Shown piece by piece: positions 2,938-12,461 of a stretch of 64,000 nucleotides of DNA. A program made the position numbers and the translations under genes. Origin of the DNA: an uncultured Kushneria sp. (GTDB lineage Bacteria > Pseudomonadota > Gammaproteobacteria > Pseudomonadales > Halomonadaceae); assembly GCF_947497025.1 (NCBI RefSeq), contig NZ_CANMFC010000012.1, positions 1 to 64,000 on the forward strand, read 5' to 3'. Position 1 is the first letter of the stretch. Each line of letters opens with the position of its first letter. The notes under the pieces were generated by a model. The model saw only the letters and a list, made by a program, of their open reading frames with translations, had not been told where the DNA came from and did no database searches.

Positions 2938-3534
2938 ATGCGTGATCGTTTATGGAAGGTGTTGGGTGTGGCAGGCGCAACGCTTGCATTCACGGCTCAG
3001 GCTCAGGCGGCCTGGCAGTTTGTTCCGGCCGACAGTGAAATAACCGCTCATGTGTCAGGCCAGGGTCAGCGCGGCCCGATGGAGCAGACCTACCATGTGT
3101 CTGATCTGCAGGGCACCATCGATGATGAGGGTCGATTCGAGATGCCGCTGCGCCTTGAACAAACCGATCTGCTGGGCAAGCAGAGTGGTCTGGGCGACCT
3201 TTTATCAGGACTTTCATCCGACTCTGCCATGGTGACGCTCTCAACAAAGGTCAATCCGGCCTGGCTGAGCAATCTGCAGCCGGGGGATGCAACGACCCGT
3301 AACGTCACGTTGACTGCCAGTGGCAATCACTTCGAGCGCAGCGAACAGGTCCCTCTGACGCTTGAGCGACTGGATCAGCAGTACTATCACCTGACACTGG
3401 CCGAGCCAATCAGTGTGGATACCCAGCAGCTGATGCAGCTGGATAATGCGCAGACCGTTTTATCGTTGCTGGGGTACAAGCGCCTGAACGACACCATACC
3501 CATCGAGTTCAACGCTCGTCTGGTCGAGCGATGA
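2938..3534 (+). CDS. YceI-like periplasmic protein
   Basis: 198 residues from ATG 2938, preceded by AAGGAG with a 7-base spacer. Residues 1-24 form a signal peptide ending AQAQA before AWQFVPADSEI. The rest reads as a beta-rich YceI-type domain: an N-terminal W..VPADSEI strand, alternating strands, and a C-terminal IPIEFNARLVER that resembles the last strand of the family. YceI proteins are periplasmic lipocalin-like barrels thought to bind polyisoprenoids. Similarity is moderate and the family assignment is tentative; it could be another small exported beta-barrel. The gene stands alone between the tRNA and a terminator hairpin. Confidence 0.6.
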   Translation: MRDRLWKVLGVAGATLAFTAQAQAAWQFVPADSEITAHVSGQGQRGPMEQTYHVSDLQGTIDDEGRFEMPLRLEQTDLLGKQSGLGDLLSGLSSDSAMVTLSTKVNPAWLSNLQPGDATTRNVTLTASGNHFERSEQVPLTLERLDQQYYHLTLAEPISVDTQQLMQLDNAQTVLSLLGYKRLNDTIPIEFNARLVER

Positions 3535-3549
3535 GCTGGCACACACAAT

Positions 3550-3572
3550 AGCGCCCGGCATGGCCGGGCGCT
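3550..3572. terminator. hairpin terminator between convergent genes
   Basis: AGCGCCCGGC, loop ATG, then GCCGGGCGCT is a perfect 10-bp stem between the + strand YceI-like gene and the minus-strand holin-like gene. Neither side has a long T-tract, so efficiency is uncertain. Confidence 0.55.
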
Positions 3573-3591: not shown

Positions 3592-4215
3592 TCAATCTTC
3601 CATATCCCTCGGACGTGGCGGCGCAGTCTCCGGGCTGCGTTCCTGCATACCCATATGCGTTTCCTCCATCATGACACGGCGCTCTACGCTGTTGCCGTGA
3701 AGATTAATGCCCAATATTCCGCTGGCCGAGAAGATCAACCAGGTCATGATATCCACACAGTCCTGAATGCGGTCAGGATCCCTGATGACCGTAATGCAGA
3801 TGGCCACGGACATGAGCGCCAGCATGCCGCACAGTGTCCAGCCTACCCCGGCTCGCCAGTCATTGTTGAAAAGCCCCTTGATAGCGCTTCCGGTAGCCTG
3901 CGACATCGCAGGCTTTTCCGCCGCCAGGTCCAGCTGTAGCTTGATGCGTTCTACATCCAGCTGTTTAAGACGCTCGATGGCCTCCGGATTCCGGTCCAGC
4001 ATATCCGAGACGCCTTGTGCGGATGCATTTGCCCAGCATTCAAGGGTTGCGGCAACAATTGCTCCCAATGCTTCATGGTTGTCCGGGTTTCTAAAAAGCG
4101 CCGCCAGTTCGGGCGCCTCCTTTTCAAGGCGTCGTCCGACTTCAGACCATGCCATGACGATTTCCTCGTCGTTCTCTGGATGCTCCATCTCGGCCAGTGT
4201 CAGGTTCGATGTCAT
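3592..4215 (-). CDS. holin-like membrane protein (3TM GTA/phage holin type)
   Basis: 207 residues from ATG 4213-4215, which has AAAAGGA 5 bases upstream. The N-terminal ~115 residues are acidic and helical and soluble. They are followed by FNNDWRAGVGWTLCGMLA leading into one membrane helix (about 123-145) and a second (about 153-173), then a short polar tail. The RAGVGW segment before the helix pair recalls the 3TM holins used for phage and gene-transfer-agent release. It overlaps the end of the muramidase gene by 74 bp in another frame, so the two are co-transcribed. A holin would permit endolysin access to peptidoglycan. Family assignment is by pattern only. Confidence 0.6.
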   Translation of the reverse strand: MTSNLTLAEMEHPENDEEIVMAWSEVGRRLEKEAPELAALFRNPDNHEALGAIVAATLECWANASAQGVSDMLDRNPEAIERLKQLDVERIKLQLDLAAEKPAMSQATGSAIKGLFNNDWRAGVGWTLCGMLALMSVAICITVIRDPDRIQDCVDIMTWLIFSASGILGINLHGNSVERRVMMEETHMGMQERSPETAPPRPRDMED

Positions 4216-4777
4216 ACATATCCTTTTCAAGCCTGACGACACGGTCGATCCAGCCCTGAGCAAATGCCTGCTGCGAGACATCACGCCGTGCAAGATCAAC
4301 CAGCCACGCCAGACGCAGCGCATTAATGGTACTCGCAAGTGTATTACCAGTGTTCACACCGCGAAGTTTGAGCATGGCGTCCATTGCCCTTAGCGTCTGC
4401 GTTCCGATGCAACCGTCTATCTCGATGGCGCTCCAGCGCCGTCCATTGTTGCTTAATACATTCAATACCTCCTGTAGCTGTCGTCCAGCACGTTTGGTTC
4501 CGCTGTGTACGCCATAATCCAGCATCGTGATCGCCAGTGCGGGCGCACGCGCACTGATCTCATCGAGCTTCATCGCATGCCAGTAGGTTTTAAGATAAAT
4601 TTTCTCGGCCAGCGCCTGAGGTAGATCACGCATGCTGCCGCGATAGCCATGATCGATAGCCACACGCTGAGTGATACCATAATTGGTCGCGCCCCCCCGA
4701 TCATTGGGATGGTCGACAAATCCGCCTTCGCGCTTCATCAAGGCGACGATAATTCTGCTGCGCTGTGATTCATTCAT
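4142..4777 (-). CDS. glycoside hydrolase family 108 muramidase (phage endolysin type)
   Basis: 211 residues from ATG 4775-4777, with GGAG 7 bases upstream; the longer in-frame start lacks a site. The N-terminal motif MKREGGFVDHPNDRGGATNY carries the GH108 catalytic Glu (Glu17 in REGG) and the conserved GGATNYGIT segment. DYGVHSGTKRAGRQLQ begins the C-terminal peptidoglycan-binding-like part. It cleaves peptidoglycan glycan strands. No signal peptide is seen, so export would depend on the overlapping holin-like gene. The pair is divergent from an S24 repressor at 4972, which implies repression until DNA damage. No terminase, capsid or tail genes are adjacent. Confidence 0.87.
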   Translation of the reverse strand: MNESQRSRIIVALMKREGGFVDHPNDRGGATNYGITQRVAIDHGYRGSMRDLPQALAEKIYLKTYWHAMKLDEISARAPALAITMLDYGVHSGTKRAGRQLQEVLNVLSNNGRRWSAIEIDGCIGTQTLRAMDAMLKLRGVNTGNTLASTINALRLAWLVDLARRDVSQQAFAQGWIDRVVRLEKDMYDIEPDTGRDGASRERRGNRHGMV

Positions 4778-4882
4778 GAGAATCTCCGTATACAAGGTTC
4801 TACGTGAAGCGCCATTGCAGCCCGGAACTGACTTACTTTTCGCGTGGCAATATTCAGTCGCCGGAGGCACAATATGCACACA

Positions 4883-4972
4883 TTGGTTAACAAATTCGAG
4901 TATGCGTGGGTTTTAATTGACCATCAAGGCTAATTTTGAAAAAGTTTTAATACTCCCGATGAGAATTAACCA
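4883..4972. promoter_or_regulatory. divergent control region with GGTTAAC / ATTAACCA motifs
   Basis: Between the muramidase (minus) and the S24 repressor (plus) lie TTGGTTAAC (4883-4891), ATTGACCA (4916-4923, one mismatch to the next) and ATTAACCA (4965-4972, ending on the repressor's start codon). The same ATTAACCA octamer appears twice upstream of the beta-helix gene. These are candidate operators of the S24 repressor. I could not assign -35/-10 elements confidently. Confidence 0.5.
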
Positions 4973-5670
4973 TGCAAAGAGTGAGTGAAATAAGACGTGA
5001 AAACGCGCGCGCGCTACGCGACCAGGCAGGCAGCAACAAGGCGTTTGCCGAGTGCGTCGGAGTTGAGCCGCCGGCAGCCAGCCGGGTACTGAGCAGCAAG
5101 GCGACACGTAATATCGGTGACGATTTCGCACGCCGCATCGAAGCGGCATTTGGCAAGGAAGATGGCTGGCTGGACAGCCGTCATGAGCAGCCCTCATCTC
5201 ATGATGGCAACGTGATCGCCATGCCATCACGCAGTGACAACAGCGTTGAGCAGGCACCCATCATGAACGGGATGGCCCCCCTGCTGAGCTGGGTACAGGC
5301 AGGCGCCTGGACGGATACTTCGGCCAGTATCATCGATCACGGGGATCAGGAATCCTTCCCTCGTCCACCCAATTGTGGCCCGAGCTGTTTTGTGCTCCGC
5401 GTGCGTGGAGAATCAATGATGGAAGTCTACCCGCCGGGCACCCTGATCTTTGTAGATCCGGACGTACAGGCCATGTCGGGTGATGATGTCATCGTTCAGT
5501 GTGAAGAGCATGGCAGCGCCGAGGCCACCTTCAAGCGCTATATTGAGGAACCAGGGCAGCCGCCCATGCTCAAGGCATTGAACCGGGGCTGGGCACAGCA
5601 ATACATGACGCTGGGGCCACACTGCCGAATCATTGGCGTTGTCATGGCACAAATGATGTTGCGCCGGTAA
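4972..5670 (+). CDS. LexA/CI-type autocleavable repressor (peptidase S24)
   Basis: 232 residues. The N-terminal ~65 residues are a divergent HTH domain (NKAFAECVGVEPPAASRVLS). The C-terminal half is a complete S24 domain: scissile Ala110-Gly111 in SWVQAGAW, nucleophile Ser148 in RGESMM and general-base Lys188 in ATFKRY. It should therefore self-cleave on RecA filaments and derepress its targets after DNA damage. It is divergent from the muramidase/holin pair and upstream of the beta-helix gene in the same orientation. This contrasts with the inactive S24 domain of the repressor at 678. ATG 4972 is used although its Shine-Dalgarno is weak (GATGAGAATTAACC precedes it). Confidence 0.88.
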   Translation: MQRVSEIRRENARALRDQAGSNKAFAECVGVEPPAASRVLSSKATRNIGDDFARRIEAAFGKEDGWLDSRHEQPSSHDGNVIAMPSRSDNSVEQAPIMNGMAPLLSWVQAGAWTDTSASIIDHGDQESFPRPPNCGPSCFVLRVRGESMMEVYPPGTLIFVDPDVQAMSGDDVIVQCEEHGSAEATFKRYIEEPGQPPMLKALNRGWAQQYMTLGPHCRIIGVVMAQMMLRR

Positions 5671-5755
5671 CCCTTGAACCGATCATTAGTAAATGTTTGT
5701 TTAAAAAGGATTACTCAATTCGAGCGCCGAAAATTGCCTAATTTGTACAATTAAG

Positions 5756-5815
5756 GGTTGACCGTATTAACCAAATGATTAACCATGATTACACGTTATC
5801 CAAAAAGGATAACGT
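5756..5815 (+). promoter_or_regulatory. operator cluster upstream of the beta-helix gene
   Basis: Two ATTAACCA copies (5766-5773 and 5778-5785, 12-bp period) follow GGTTGACC (5756-5763). They are followed by the perfect inverted repeat ACGTTATCC, AAAAA, GGATAACGT (5793-5815). The ATTAACCA motif also ends on the start codon of the S24 repressor. The palindrome may be a second regulator site or an RNA hairpin ahead of the ribosome binding site at 5839. Confidence 0.5.
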
Positions 5816-5850
5816 CACGACATCAATATGGTTATCTTTGGAGAATATTC

Positions 5851-7401
5851 ATGACGACTGCTACTGCTACCGCAATGAAGACCGTTCTTGATTTTGGCGC
5901 TGATCCTACTGGTAAAAAGGACAGTTCACAGGCATTCATCGATGCAGCGTCCAGCGAACTCGCCACGGTCATCGTACCGCCTGGTGACTACGTGATCGCC
6001 AAAACGGTTGACCTGCAATACAAGAACCTCAGCGGCTCAGGGCGCCTGCGCGAAAATCAGAACAACGGCAAGGCACGGCTTCGTCCCGGCAGCGGGCTCA
6101 CCGGTGCGATGTTTATCAAGCAGGGGCCAATGGTTGAAAACCTGTTGATTCAGGGTCAAAAAGAAAGTGACGGCAAAACCGCCTTTGATGCCCAGGGCTA
6201 CAACAGCGTTTTCAGCAATATCCACTTTACAAACATCCAGTACGCCATCTACGTCAAGGAAATTCTGGTCAACTTCACGATCAAGGATTGCGTCTTTATC
6301 CAGGTGGGCTATGGGCTCTACTGTGATGATGCCAAGAACAGCTACTCAACCACGGCGCGCTTTTTGCGCAACGAGTTCAATAACTGCGGCAACGCCTTCG
6401 TTTTCCGTCGCCAGATCAATGGCTCCACCTTTCAGGACAATATTTTCGAGTTTATCAGCGGCGATGCGCTGGTGGCTTCGCACATCTACGATTGCAACTT
6501 TATCGGCAACTGGTGGGAAAAACGTCGTGATACGGGTACGGCTGCTCATGTTCCACTGATCGCCCCCCAGGACGAAACGGATGACGAAACTGGCCATCCG
6601 GCTATTCGCAGCAGCAGCTACCAGCAGATCATGAACTGCTTTGCGGCCGGTAATAAGGTGACCTGGGGCTGGCGTAACGTGTTCAGCTCCATGCTTAACG
6701 ACTCTCGCATGGGGGGCGTCTCTGCCCACGGGGGCGCCGTGGTGGTGAGAACCGCGGCCGGCCGCGCAATGCGTGTCACGCCAGACAACATTGTTCAGCA
6801 GGCTGACAAGTGGTGCTATCTGCCCACCTTTGCCATTGAAGCCGGTAGAAACAGCGCGGGCGCTCCCCAGGGAATCACTCTTCGAACCAAGGGTGGGCCA
6901 CTGTCACTTGAAGACAGCGAAAAGAATGCCTTTTCAGGTGCCATCTCCATCGCCAAGGGAAAAGGCCTCTTCGAGCAGTACAGTCTGACCCGAAACGCCG
7001 CCGGCAAACCAACGGTGGGGCTGACAGGCGTCAGCGAAATGATGATTAACGGAGAAAAGGTCAAACTGACGACCGGTATTCCTCAGCATTTCCTGTGGCG
7101 TCAGGACAAGCTCAGCCGCGGTCTGGGGTGTTTCACGACCAACCAGGTGACAACAGAGGGAACGATCAAGCTGGTGACCGAATATCTGCTGGATAATCCC
7201 CTGATTCAGGTGACTGTCGAAGACCGGGGCATCCGTTTTGATGGTCTCAAGCATCTGGGCAGTTACGTCAATTCCAGCAAGTCACGGCGCCAGTGCACAG
7301 GGTTTGAGCTGTACTTTGTCGACGCCGAGGGCAAGCCGAAAACGCCGACGGCCTTTTCGATGCAGATGCTGACGCTCAACCCCTCCCTGCTGACCTCCTG
7401 A
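5851..7401 (+). CDS. parallel beta-helix protein, phage tailspike / pectate-lyase-like
   Basis: 516 residues from ATG 5851, chosen because GGAG lies 8 bases upstream; the frame is open back to 5785. The N-terminal TVLDFGADPTGKKDSSQAFI is the signature opening of pectate-lyase-3/tailspike beta-helices. It is followed by coil repeats (IHFTNIQYAIYVKEI, FLRNEFNNCGNAFVF, FQDNIFEFISGDALV) to about residue 250, then a beta-rich C-terminal region. No signal peptide and no obvious head- or tail-binding domain are present, so release would need lysis. The substrate is probably a surface polysaccharide, but no catalytic site can be assigned. Its promoter shares motifs with the S24/lysis control region. 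Confidence 0.75.
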   Translation: MTTATATAMKTVLDFGADPTGKKDSSQAFIDAASSELATVIVPPGDYVIAKTVDLQYKNLSGSGRLRENQNNGKARLRPGSGLTGAMFIKQGPMVENLLIQGQKESDGKTAFDAQGYNSVFSNIHFTNIQYAIYVKEILVNFTIKDCVFIQVGYGLYCDDAKNSYSTTARFLRNEFNNCGNAFVFRRQINGSTFQDNIFEFISGDALVASHIYDCNFIGNWWEKRRDTGTAAHVPLIAPQDETDDETGHPAIRSSSYQQIMNCFAAGNKVTWGWRNVFSSMLNDSRMGGVSAHGGAVVVRTAAGRAMRVTPDNIVQQADKWCYLPTFAIEAGRNSAGAPQGITLRTKGGPLSLEDSEKNAFSGAISIAKGKGLFEQYSLTRNAAGKPTVGLTGVSEMMINGEKVKLTTGIPQHFLWRQDKLSRGLGCFTTNQVTTEGTIKLVTEYLLDNPLIQVTVEDRGIRFDGLKHLGSYVNSSKSRRQCTGFELYFVDAEGKPKTPTAFSMQMLTLNPSLLTS

Positions 7402-7430: not shown

Positions 7431-7455
7431 AAGGGGCGCCCATTGGGCGCCCCTT
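7431..7455. terminator. bidirectional hairpin terminator
   Basis: AAGGGGCGCCC, loop ATT, GGGCGCCCCTT is a perfect 11-bp stem between the converging beta-helix gene and dkgB. No long T-tract follows on either strand. Confidence 0.65.
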
Positions 7456-7508: not shown

Positions 7509-8308
7509 TTATTCATCCCAGACCGGAGCAAAGGACGGATTGGCAATACGTTCGCCGCGGTCAAGGGCGTTGATACGTTTGACCTCGTCGTCGCTCAGCG
7601 ACAAATTCATGGCGTCCAGATTGGACTGCTGGTGAGCCCTTTTCGTGGACGAAGGAATCACCACGATATTGCGCGCCGCTACCCAGGCCAGCGCGACCTG
7701 TGCAGGTGTCACATCATGTTTGTCGGCAATCTGTTTGAGCGTGTCATCTTCCATGACCTTGCCTACTGCCAGCGGCATGTAACCGGTCACCCTGACGCCT
7801 CTTTCATTGCAATGATTGACCAGCGCCTTGTTGGCCAGGAAGGGATGCACCTCAATCTGGTTGGTGATGAGCTGATCGCCGCCTTCAACCTCAAGCGCCT
7901 CATCGAGCTGAGCCATGGTGAAGTTGGAGACACCGATGTTACGAGTCAGACCACGCGATTTTGCCTCGGCCAGCGCTCCGATCGACTCGGCTACCGGCAC
8001 CTCGTTATCGGGTGAAGGCCAGTGCAGAAGCACCAGATCCACGTAATCGGTGCCAAGCCTTTCAAGACTCTCTTCAAGGCTTTTGATCAGATCATCATGG
8101 TGGAAACGATCCGTCCAGATCTTGGTGGTCAGAAAAATCTCTTCACGCGCACACCACTGTCAGCGATGGCACGCCCGACTTCGGCTTCATTGCCGTACAT
8201 CTGCGCTGTATCGATATGCCGATAGCCCAGCTCAAGCGCCGTGGTCACCGAATCGATGACATCCTGCCCCTTGAGTCGATAGGTACCCAGACCAATATCG
8301 GGAGTCAT
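7509..8308 (-). pseudogene. dkgB: frameshifted aldo/keto reductase, DkgB-like
   Basis: The start is ATG 8306-8308 with AGGAGG just upstream. The N-terminal part ([18 protein letters not shown], then [13 protein letters not shown] with the AKR Asp and Tyr) stops after SGVR. The next frame continues exactly as DkgB should ([15 protein letters not shown], then LHWPSPDNEVP and VIPSSTKR). One C appears to be missing near 8145-8150, where the minus strand reads GTGCGCGTGAAG instead of the expected GTGCGCCGTGAAG. DkgB reduces 2,5-diketogluconate and methylglyoxal-type aldehydes. Everything else is intact, so this is either a very recent lesion or a sequencing error. Confidence 0.85.
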
Positions 8309-8600
8309 GTGACCTCCTGTCAGTGGTGCCCGTGGGCACCTTGTAAACGCTTGACGACCATTAGCCGTAGTCATTCGATTGCTCAGTACTGACATTAGGC
8401 ACTGTACCGATACTTTCAACCCGTTAGTCTGCAAATCATGTCGACAGATGGAACGGCCAAAGGCATGATTGGCACTGTCTGATGAGCACCCTCAGACTTC
8501 CATAATGACACCCTTGTGCGGACATGCGAGACTGCGCCGCCAGACTGCAAGCCCATACCATCGCCGAAGCTACCGGCACTCATGTCGAAAAGAGATCGCT

Positions 8601-10339: not shown

Positions 10340-10353
10340 TTAAAGGAGTGCTC

Positions 10354-11568
10354 ATGCAGCTTACTGACAAGCTGATCGTTCTCGCGGACGCCGCCAAATA
10401 TGACGCCTCGTGCGCCAGTAGCGGCGCGCCCAAACGCTCATCAAGGGGCCAGAAGGGCCTGGGGGCGACCAACGGCAACGGCATCTGTCACAGCTTTACG
10501 CCGGATGGCCGCTGCGTGGCATTGCTCAAGATCCTGATGACCAACTTCTGCCTGTATGACTGCCAGTACTGCATCAACCGGCGCTCCAGCAACGTGCCCA
10601 GGGCGCGCTTCAGCGTGGATGAAATTGTGCGGTTAACGCTCGATTTCTATCGTCGCAACCTGATCAGTGGGCTTTTTTTAAGCTCCGGCATTATCCGCTC
10701 CAATGATTACACCATGGAGGCGCTGGTCAGGGTGGCCAGAACGCTGCGCGTCGAGCATCAGTTTCGCGGCTATATCCATCTCAAGACCATTCCCGATGCT
10801 TCTCCGGATCTGATCCGCCAGGCCGGGCTGTACGCTGACCGTCTCAGCGTCAATGTCGAGCTGCCCACGAGTCAGAGCCTCAATCGCCTGGCTCCGGAAA
10901 AAAGCGACACCACCATTCGTCTTGCCATGTCGACCATTCGCGATGGGCTGGATGAGGCGACCGCTGAACCCCGAGCTCCCCGCTTTTCACCCGGCGGCCA
11001 GAGCACCCAAATGATTGTGGGGGCCGACGATACCGATGATCACACCATTCTGGGTAACGTTCAGTCCCTGTATGGTGATTACCGACTCAAGCGGGTTTAC
11101 TACTCGGCCTTTTCGCCCATTCCCGAAAGCCCATCGTCGGTGCCATTGATCGCCCCACCGCTGTTGCGTGAGCATCGCCTGTATCAGGCCGATTTTTTGA
11201 TCCGGGGGTATGGTTTTCGTGCCAATGAACTTTTGACCGGCCCTGGTAACCTGTCGCTGGATATTGATCCCAAGCTTGCCTGGGCGCTCAACCATCGGGA
11301 GCTCTTTCCCATCGATCTGGACCGTGCCGACATGTACATGATTGCTCGGGTGCCAGGCATCGGGATTACCAGTGCGCGACGCATCGAGACACTGCGTCGT
11401 GAACGGCGCATTCGCTATACCGATCTGACCCGGCTGGGCTGCTCCATGAAGAAGCTGGCTCCTTTTATTACCACTCAGGACTACCGTCCGCGTCAGGCCG
11501 GTCTCGAACGACAGGCACTGCTGGCGCAGATGCAGACCTCCACTCCGGCGCAGATGGCGCTGCTTTAA
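10354..11568 (+). CDS. radical SAM protein, putative DNA modification/repair family
   Basis: 404 residues from ATG 10354 with AAGGAG 5 bases upstream. CLYDCQYC near residue 60 is the iron-sulfur cluster motif of the putative DNA modification/repair radical SAM family (TIGR03916-type). The N-terminus (LIVLADAAKYDASCASSG) and GNGICHSFTPDGRCVALLK are also characteristic. A C-terminal helix-hairpin-helix-like segment, VPGIGITSARRIETLRRE, suggests DNA binding. The chemistry is not established for this family. It is controlled by a LexA box and followed 17 bp later by its usual partner gene. Confidence 0.88.
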   Translation: MQLTDKLIVLADAAKYDASCASSGAPKRSSRGQKGLGATNGNGICHSFTPDGRCVALLKILMTNFCLYDCQYCINRRSSNVPRARFSVDEIVRLTLDFYRRNLISGLFLSSGIIRSNDYTMEALVRVARTLRVEHQFRGYIHLKTIPDASPDLIRQAGLYADRLSVNVELPTSQSLNRLAPEKSDTTIRLAMSTIRDGLDEATAEPRAPRFSPGGQSTQMIVGADDTDDHTILGNVQSLYGDYRLKRVYYSAFSPIPESPSSVPLIAPPLLREHRLYQADFLIRGYGFRANELLTGPGNLSLDIDPKLAWALNHRELFPIDLDRADMYMIARVPGIGITSARRIETLRRERRIRYTDLTRLGCSMKKLAPFITTQDYRPRQAGLERQALLAQMQTSTPAQMALL

Positions 11569-11585
11569 GCATTCGGAATGTCACC

Positions 11586-12461
11586 ATGACGATGTATACC
11601 CTGTACATGGCACGGGCCGACTTCGCCGCCTGGCGCGACAACGCCCGCCGGTTGCTGGCGGCACGGGTGTCACCCGGCGAGGTGCTGTGGCAGGACAATG
11701 ACTCGGCAGGCGATCTTTTCGCCAGCGGTGATACGGATCTGCCACCACCGAGCGAGACACCGCTGGCGCTGAAGCTTTCAAGACAGCATCTGAGTCGGCT
11801 CGAATGCGCCTCTCACTACTGGCCTGCACATCATCAGGAGTGCCGCTGGGCACTGCTTTATCGGGTGGTCTGGCGACTGGCGCAGGGTGAAGGCGAAGCA
11901 CTGCTGGCAGGGGACACCGATGGTGCCGTTGTCGAGCAGCGCGTCAAGGCGGTCAATCATGAAGTGCATCACATACACGCCTTTCTGCGTTTTCATCAGC
12001 AGCCCGTTCATCCGCAAGAACAGCACGCTCCCGAATTCGTTGCCTGGTTTGAACCCCGCCATGATGTTCTTGAGGCGGCCGCACGACACTTTATCGATCG
12101 GATGGGGCAGCATCGCTGGCTGATCATGACGCCCGAGGGGACCATCTTTTGCGATGGTCGGCAGTGGCATATCGAACGCCCCGAGTCCGGTGTCTTTACC
12201 TTCCAGGACTATCAGGCGCTATCAACAATGGAAAACGACGTGGAGGATCTCTGGCTGGCCTACTACGCCAGCACGTTCAACCCGGCCCGTCTCAATGAAA
12301 AAACCATGGTGCGCAGTATGCCCTCGCGCTTTTGGCGCCACATGCCCGAGCGCGTTCTGATTACCGGCCTGATCAGCCATGCCAGGCATGGCGCCCGACG
12401 GCTGGGACAGGACAGTCGGCTGGCCGACAGGCGCGGCCACACCATTACGCTGCCCAAATAG
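11586..12461 (+). CDS. DNA metabolism protein with UDG-like/DUF4130 domain, radical SAM partner
   Basis: 291 residues. Its N-terminal region (MTMYTLYMARADFAAWR) and C-terminal DUF4130 segment (FNPARLNEKTMVRSMPSRFW) match the TIGR03915 family, which nearly always neighbours the radical SAM gene immediately upstream. The middle (ECRWALLYRVVWRLAQGEGE, then VNHEVHHIHAFLRF) carries several conserved His. DUF4130 resembles uracil-DNA glycosylase-like folds. The pair is thought to act on damaged or modified DNA, but no reaction is proven. It shares the LexA-controlled transcript. Confidence 0.85.
   Translation: MTMYTLYMARADFAAWRDNARRLLAARVSPGEVLWQDNDSAGDLFASGDTDLPPPSETPLALKLSRQHLSRLECASHYWPAHHQECRWALLYRVVWRLAQGEGEALLAGDTDGAVVEQRVKAVNHEVHHIHAFLRFHQQPVHPQEQHAPEFVAWFEPRHDVLEAAARHFIDRMGQHRWLIMTPEGTIFCDGRQWHIERPESGVFTFQDYQALSTMENDVEDLWLAYYASTFNPARLNEKTMVRSMPSRFWRHMPERVLITGLISHARHGARRLGQDSRLADRRGHTITLPK

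Follow-up and report, generated by a model that had tools for sequence, protein, structure and literature searches.

Positions 1 to 64,000 of contig NZ_CANMFC010000012.1, from an uncultured Kushneria sp. (assembly GCF_947497025.1; this whole stretch is hereafter called the window), carry near their left end an island of four genes that encode a GH108 muramidase, a holin-like protein, an S24 repressor and a right-handed beta-helix protein (Table 1). I read the island as part of a domesticated phage lysis regulon that would release a single cargo protein, the beta-helix protein, and put the probability of this reading at roughly two in three. From their sequences, the holin, the endolysin, the cargo and the autocleavable repressor look like one two-locus regulon together with a pair of spanins encoded near argF. 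The original prediction had described four intact genes, all of which were confirmed by reading of the open reading frames and by family scans. A correction to it is that the island is not the whole system, the spanins sitting at a second locus; this unlinked pair with the same operator type, and a set of integrase, excisionase and second S24 repressor genes to the left of the island (678–2748), had been overlooked.

Ten Kushneria genomes (denoted by G numbers) were compared. The host gene upstream of the island (2938–3534) is found in all ten. In seven of them, which include K. pakistanensis (G004), K. phyllosphaerae (G005), K. avicenniae (G007) and K. indalinina (G009), the four-gene block follows at one chromosomal site, and beyond it stand the same host genes, one for an aldo/keto reductase and then those farther downstream. 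The other three (G002, G006 and K. sinocarnis, G008) lack the block: the upstream gene directly adjoins the reductase, giving clean empty sites. A search of related genomes for the four-gene set outside prophages, suggested as a check when the island was first described, is thereby answered in the affirmative. In trees built from argF and from the upstream gene, G002 and G008 stand apart from the seven carriers plus G006, the order within the latter group not being settled; the carriers are close kin, and a single gain, perhaps with one loss, is probably enough to explain the distribution. No plasmid match to the island DNA was found.

The four reading frames are intact in every carrier, as had been supposed, and are under purifying selection. 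Median ratios of nonsynonymous to synonymous divergence (dN/dS; pairwise over the seven carriers, 21 pairs, or 20 for the repressor, one pair being saturated) rise from 0.039 (repressor) through 0.067 (beta-helix protein) and 0.126 (muramidase) to 0.183 (holin), with median dS values of 0.65–1.53; the same method gives 0.058 and 0.183 for two flanking host genes. These data bear on the possibility that the island is a decaying prophage remnant, with repressor, lysis and tail-spike genes left over from an integrated phage and kept by chance. Every part of the island does have phage relatives, a tRNA-Met gene and an integrase lie 0.7–1.9 kb to its left, and GH108 and S24 relatives outside the genus stand in what appear, from their open frames, to be ordinary prophages. 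However, between the same host genes on both sides no virion, packaging or replication gene and no linked integrase was seen in any of the seven carriers, in agreement with the claim that the island holds no virion or replication genes, and three sites are cleanly empty. The tRNA gene separates the integrase from the island, and just one of the six other carriers has a close ortholog (94%) at this place. The intact frames with their low dN/dS, the conserved operator arms and the second-site spanins with the same operator type (see below) argue in the same direction. Nor do these genes form the end of a complete prophage in any of the seven carriers, an arrangement that the original prediction had named as fatal to its proposal and that would have favored its decayed-prophage null. 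Selection and synteny largely refute the remnant hypothesis; a decayed prophage or prophage end was rejected on these grounds and on that of the empty sites, and I regard it as highly improbable.

By sequence, the repressor has the features of a LexA/CI-type S24 protein with a DNA-binding domain and is predicted to be autocleavable. The residues singled out in the original prediction, Ala110-Gly111, Ser148 and Lys188, are invariant in all 11 aligned repressors. Its nearest phage relatives over the full length are the CI repressors of SfV and yong2 (43–45%), and its N-terminal part matches phrog_12107 (repressor); a Pfam scan gave no helix-turn-helix match. The annotated putative operator region of SfV, between cro and cI, contains palindromes of the form GTACC-N5-GGTAC, found by script, and palindromes of that form were read by eye in the cro–cI stretch of yong2. 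They share the CC-N5-GG spacing of the island operators described next, whereas the outer half-site is different. This likeness is consistent with a related protein of diverged specificity.

Alignment of the intergenic regions of the island in the seven genomes reveals strongly conserved blocks, including operator-like footprints in both promoter regions. These palindromes follow the consensus TTAWCC-N5-GGWTAA, of which 12 positions were scored. Site B, in front of the beta-helix gene, reads GTTATCC-AAAAA-GGATAAC, and in G005 GTTAACC-AAAAA-GGTTAAC, with paired changes in both arms. Site A, between the muramidase and repressor genes, reads ATTATCC-ATCAA-GGATAAT in G003 and G005 and ATTAACC-TTCAA-GGTTAAT in G004. 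When the ten whole genomes were searched with the relaxed pattern TTAWCC-N5-GGNTAA, 17 places were found, all of them in the seven carriers and only in three promoter regions: that of the beta-helix gene (7/7), that of the spanin locus (7/7) and that between the muramidase and repressor genes (3/7). The four copies of site A that the relaxed pattern misses score 10 or 11 of 12; over the seven genomes, scores range from 10 to 12 for site A and from 11 to 12 for site B, and are 12 throughout for the spanin site. A free half-site test, in which any 6-base half-site was allowed, 300 dinucleotide shuffles were made per genome and 12 other spacings were compared, gave a similar picture. At a spacing of 5, TTAACC or TTATCC forms part of the top-scoring shared palindrome in all seven genomes (score 10; 12 in G003), scores reached in 0–5 of the 300 shuffles per genome, and the joint score is highest at this spacing (70, as against 66 or less). 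The presence of one type of operator in front of the lysis genes as well as the beta-helix gene in seven genomes supports the proposal, made from the window, of their joint control.

The third operator locus is the same one in all seven carriers and lies beside argF, unlinked to the island. The two genes found there have the sequence features of a two-component Rz/Rz1 spanin: an i-spanin with an N-terminal transmembrane (TM) segment (by hydropathy; best match to an Rz-like spanin PHROG, E 7e-14) and, nested in its +1 frame, a lipoprotein-like o-spanin that bears a proline-rich stretch (Rz-like spanin PHROG, E 9e-10; lipobox and proline-rich stretch read by eye). Both frames are open in all carriers (157–182 codons for the i-spanin, 105–121 for the o-spanin) and evolve under purifying selection, dN/dS being 0.243 over the full length of the o-spanin and 0.125 over the i-spanin outside the overlap. 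When the N-terminal 58 residues of the i-spanin were used as query against 58 genomes, the seven carriers matched and the three island-less Kushneria did not; four further matches, outside the genus, were weak. A tblastn search with the i-spanin gave no phage match. With argF as marker of the locus, G006 is seen to have argF followed directly by a small gene that in the carriers stands beyond the spanin pair. A CBS-domain gene beside the locus was discarded as a marker, being missing from three carriers and away from argF/uvrC in the three non-carriers.

A LexA-type box, CTG-N10-CAG, lies 35–36 bp from the spanin operator in all seven carriers and has the full form CTGT-N8-ACAG in four. In the genome under study it is CTGTATACGTATACAG, close to CTGTATATATATACAG, which is found upstream of the genome's own umuD-like gene; a UmuC-like frame (labeled by eye) follows the latter. 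At the same locus (L103, contig C7 of this genome, 7952–8496) two small conserved genes of 65–67 and 75–76 codons run divergently from the spanin pair, the LexA-type box standing some 42–56 bp upstream of the start codon that is conserved in the first. They have no Pfam or significant PHROG match, and may also be SOS genes.

The muramidase assignment draws on matches to PF05838 (E 4e-23), PG_binding_3 (E 8e-12) and the endolysin family phrog_315 (E 4e-42); the top-listed phage relative is the endolysin of Halomonas phage phiHAP-1 (45%), and hydropathy shows no hydrophobic TM-like segment. Its gene shares a 74-bp overlap with the holin gene, and the pair, on the minus strand, diverges from the plus-strand repressor gene, as had been described. 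The holin reading frame as listed (248 codons) begins upstream of a conserved ATG, from which the adopted 207-residue protein starts. This protein has no Pfam match and a single PHROG match, phrog_1544, of unknown function. Profile comparison (hhalign) relates it to two prophage holins of the Halomonas family (probability 96.6, E 6e-10), one of which matches a 3TM holin family, and a relative in Salinivibrio phage SMHB1 (26%, E 2e-7) is encoded directly after the endolysin gene. The holin assignment, based on distant homology, the pattern of TM segments and the place of the gene, is thus weaker than that of the muramidase.

Tailocins and gene transfer agents (GTAs) use holin/endolysin release, often linked to the SOS response. 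One alternative is that the lysis regulon acts for something encoded at another place, for instance an F-type tailocin, a GTA or a prophage, and that the beta-helix protein is a bystander or a part of the particle; the distant relationship of the holin to prophage holins matching GTA_holin_3TM also speaks for it. Nevertheless, no further copy of the operator pattern exists in the ten genomes and the beta-helix gene carries an operator itself. The contractile sheath PF04984 occurs in three of the seven carriers and in two of the three non-carriers; its absence from four carriers led to rejection of an R-type tailocin as the product served (genes of F-type tailocins and GTAs were not searched). 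A product encoded elsewhere is, in my estimate, improbable.

The cargo of the proposed regulon is the beta-helix protein. Its first 80 residues contain no hydrophobic segment, which agrees with the claimed lack of a signal peptide as far as a hydropathy scan can tell, a signal-peptide predictor not having been run. An AlphaFold 2 model was obtained (pLDDT 70.3, pTM 0.52), and its best Foldseek match is the tailspike of phage phiAB6 (PDB 5js4; E 3e-19, with 558 alignment columns for a chain of 547 residues), with further matches to WceF (E 2e-5) and RbmB. A profile of the beta-helix family also matches the 5js4 chain, with E 2e-26 over residues 9–296. The catalytic pair reported for phiAB6, Glu425 and Glu447 (PMC5314372), aligns with E200 and E223 given a 20-residue offset in the numbering of the PDB chain, an offset inferred from the fact that both residues then fit; E200 and E223 are invariant in all 14 family members. 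Residue 9 here corresponds to residue 243 of the phage chain, the first ~240 residues of which have no counterpart. By this alignment the protein lacks an N-terminal virion-attachment region, in line with the stated absence of a tail-attachment domain. The recommended comparison of a predicted structure with depolymerases ended with a phage tailspike as best match of the model and with both of its catalytic glutamates kept. On sequence and model, the protein is a predicted phiAB6-type glycosidase and looks polysaccharide-active, as originally suggested. A longer reading starting at 5785 (538 residues) was rejected; that start is unconserved in relatives, and operator B would fall inside the gene.

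The closest relatives of the beta-helix protein are bacterial and belong to Kushneria, Salinicola, Phytohalomonas and Larsenimonas. Among 50,697 phage records, 65 contain relatives, with identity below 60% and coverage of the query below 80% in every case; in viral_contigs at least 182 were confirmed, and the best 80 of the 182 are mostly short N-terminal matches. Sixteen loci were scanned, five of them prophage loci. The 11 others, which carry beta-helix relatives in Salinicola, Phytohalomonas, Larsenimonas and island-less Kushneria, gave no S24, GH108, holin, spanin or operator-pattern match. In Salinicola (L091–L093, L218, L219) the relative, the closest outside Kushneria at ~50%, is a lone gene with no repressor or lysis genes nearby. 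The island-less G002 and G008 each have a lone signal-less relative beside an apparent glnA (L030, 9170–10699; L032, 9151–10677), within 19-kb loci that contain no lysis genes and no operator pattern.

A paralogue about 40% identical is present in nine of the ten Kushneria genomes (L027, 8902–10554, and equivalents). The four Kushneria copies that were read (L027, L028, L029, L031), and those of Phytohalomonas (L033) and Larsenimonas (L034), have a twin-arginine-type N-terminus by eye, and beside them stands an acyl-carrier/acyltransferase-like cluster, which I take to be of a fatty-acid/polyene-like kind. It seems, from these sequences, that the genus has an exported version of this kind of protein and that the island version is signal-less and placed with lysis genes. 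The beta-helix gene tree separates G001 from G003, unlike that of argF, and two sequence types around residues 55–115, recognized by eye, occur across species; together these suggest allele exchange in a possible substrate-binding part.

Several observations weigh against the regulon reading. Site A has two mismatches in the window, and at that level about 2.8 matches per 64 kb are expected by chance. A reversed control pattern is about as frequent per genome as the real one, so that the weight of the operator argument lies in the positions of the sites and not in their number. The spanin locus was found by means of the motif and is not an independent sample of it, which makes the half-site test only partly independent; in that test, moreover, spacing 11 outscores spacing 5 in G005 (with 11), and other spacings tie in several genomes. 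A sigma-70 scan found no match in the island promoters. In the spanin promoter it found two (0.2 expected), one of them with a −10 box largely inside the operator, and the palindrome there may consequently be in part a feature of the promoter or of divergent promoters. No CTGT-N8-ACAG box is present in the island of any of the seven carriers, and the genome's own lexA gene lacks the full box. Confidence in the beta-helix model is middling, and its whole-chain superposition on phiAB6 is poor (TM-score 0.48, root-mean-square deviation 13.1). As the carriers are closely related, the co-occurrence of island and spanins counts as about one event. Finally, expression, binding and lysis are predictions from sequence.

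The colicin lysis cassettes invoked in the original prediction are not the best comparison; functionally, type 10 secretion systems (T10SSs) and the Alp system stand closest. T10SSs are described as repurposed phage lysis cassettes with a coupled cargo (PMC10847048, PMC13284979). The sequences here show one of their features, a pair of predicted holin and hydrolase outside a prophage, and, on the side of the cargo, a protein with no hydrophobic segment in the N-terminal region scanned and an operator type shared with the lysis pair. As in Serratia ChiWXYZ, Yersinia entomophaga YenLC and Salmonella holin/TtsA, a phage-derived holin and a peptidoglycan hydrolase are chromosomal, and here their coupling to a cargo is predicted; the hydrolase belongs to the muramidases, like TtsA according to PMC13284979 and PMC10847048, and spanins are present as in some T10SSs, here as a nested pair in all carriers. 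In contrast to T10SSs, the spanins are encoded away from the other lysis genes, a tailspike-like glycosidase is the proposed cargo, and a phage-type S24 repressor and a LexA-type box at the spanin locus take the place of the regulators ChiR, RoeA or PhoP. The Yersinia T10SS is described as insensitive to the SOS response (PMC10847048), whereas the sequence of the present system points toward SOS-type control.

T10SSs also raise the possibility of non-lytic export, in which low-level action of holin and muramidase would let the glycosidase out of cells that stay alive, a mode proposed for the Salmonella systems. The latter lack spanins and are reported as non-lytic (PMC13284979), and the cargo considered here has no hydrophobic N-terminal segment. 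The conserved spanin pair with the same operator type nonetheless favors lysis. This argument is not decisive, since no lysis was detected, according to the account in PMC13284979, for a Serratia system that has spanins. I consider export without lysis very unlikely.

The Alp system of Pseudomonas aeruginosa (AlpR/AlpA/AlpBCDE) is reported to combine an autocleaved repressor with a chromosomal holin-type lysis cassette triggered by DNA damage (PMC7969949). The island likewise has a predicted autocleavable repressor adjoining a chromosomal lysis cassette; unlike Alp, it has a GH108 endolysin and a glycosidase as proposed cargo, and it shares its operator type with a spanin operon at a distant locus. 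Family scans found no AlpA-like antiterminator among the four island genes (the genome was not searched for AlpA). The likeness to AlpR, itself an autocleaving repressor upstream of its cassette, lends some support to the view that what is selected is SOS suicide, as phage defence or abortive infection or for release of extracellular DNA as in Pseudomonas alp/pyocin lysis, the glycosidase merely dispersing debris or stripping receptors. The missing second regulator is a point against it, as is the absence of any PADLOC defence-family match other than one to the o-spanin (E 0.006) judged to be due to chance, and a dedicated glycosidase, maintained by selection and preceded by the same type of operator, suggests instead a role as cargo. 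Altruistic death of this kind seems rather unlikely.

Individual components recall other systems. With phiAB6-type tailspike depolymerases the beta-helix protein shares a fold match, a profile match and both catalytic glutamates, and it differs in having no counterpart of their N-terminal part and no phage genes around it. Pantoea stewartii WceF is also a bacterial protein with a tailspike-like fold, reported to act on exopolysaccharide (PMC7949094); WceF is encoded in an exopolysaccharide synthesis cluster, whereas the protein studied here is encoded with lysis genes and a phage-type repressor. Lysis modules of prophages in the related Halomonas, those of Phm3 (endolysin/o-spanin/i-spanin/holin; PMC11131426) and phiHAP-1, resemble the present system in an EGGY-type endolysin, spanins and a two-TM holin, but they are parts of complete, particle-forming phages or prophages.

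Table 1. Features of the island in the window
Feature	Position	Strand	Remarks
GC-rich inverted repeat, possible terminator (by eye)	3551..3571		between upstream host gene and holin gene; left island edge
Holin-like protein	3592..4215	-	207 aa; predicted TM segments at residues 126-144 and 154-172 (hydropathy)
GH108 muramidase, endolysin type	4142..4777	-	211 aa; N-terminal EGGF; PF05838
Operator-like palindrome A	4917..4933		between GH108 and repressor genes; 10/12 consensus positions in this genome
S24 (LexA/CI-type) repressor	4972..5670	+	232 aa; PF00717 E 5e-18; A110-G111, S148/K188
Operator-like palindrome B, TTATCC-AAAAA-GGATAA	5796..5812		38 bp 5' of the beta-helix start codon
Tailspike-like right-handed beta-helix protein, predicted endoglycosidase	5851..7401	+	516 aa; PF12708; predicted dyad E200/E223
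GC-rich inverted repeat, possible terminator (by eye)	7431..7455		3' of the beta-helix gene; right island edge

Both edge repeats align in all seven carriers, that on the left with a single arm base different in G001. Outside the island, the set at 678–2748 comprises a second S24 repressor, an excisionase-like gene and a tyrosine integrase (1714–2748) ending at the 3' end of tRNA-Met (2787–2863), and is the edge of another mobile element that runs off the start of the contig. It was dismissed as a part of the system, as it lies beyond the tRNA gene and its integrase is so rarely found here in the other carriers. The aldo/keto reductase gene beside the island (7509–8434) is split over two frames and is either a pseudogene or an assembly error; K. 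phyllosphaerae (L021) has a single intact frame of 308 codons. A radical SAM protein followed by a DUF4130 protein is encoded at 10348–12461, a pair regarded as a putative DNA modification or repair unit.

The regulon would work as follows. In undamaged cells, the S24 repressor would bind the TTAWCC-N5-GGWTAA operators at the three promoter regions and keep silent the GH108-holin operon, the gene of the tailspike-like glycosidase and the unlinked Rz/Rz1 spanin operon near argF. DNA damage would activate RecA and, through it, self-cleavage of the repressor at A110-G111, which would lead to joint expression of these genes, presumably followed by lysis in only some cells; the LexA box beside the spanin promoter may supply a second SOS input. 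The holin would then open the inner membrane, the muramidase cut the peptidoglycan and the spanins break through the outer membrane. In this way the glycosidase, a predicted cytoplasmic protein with no recognizable export signal, would be set free to cut a surface or biofilm polysaccharide. That this amounts to a two-locus, SOS-gated lysis-release system, in which the death of damaged cells yields a matrix- or capsule-cutting public good and LexA is a possible second lock at the spanins, is a tentative proposal to which I give a little less than even odds.

Searches of the open-licence literature of PubMed Central showed no description of such a system. If the proposal is true, it would define an SOS-controlled class of type 10 secretion and would join two subjects usually kept apart, SOS-triggered lysis of phage type (prophages, pyocins, Alp) and lysis-based protein release (T10SS). 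The arrangement suggests that the genes of a lysis cassette can be distributed over two places in a chromosome with one operator kept. One whole-genome palindrome search was enough to uncover the missing spanins, an approach that is transferable to other hidden regulons. For environmental halophiles, the island and its spanins offer a small and genetically simple system in which to ask whether death by DNA damage yields a beneficial release of enzyme.

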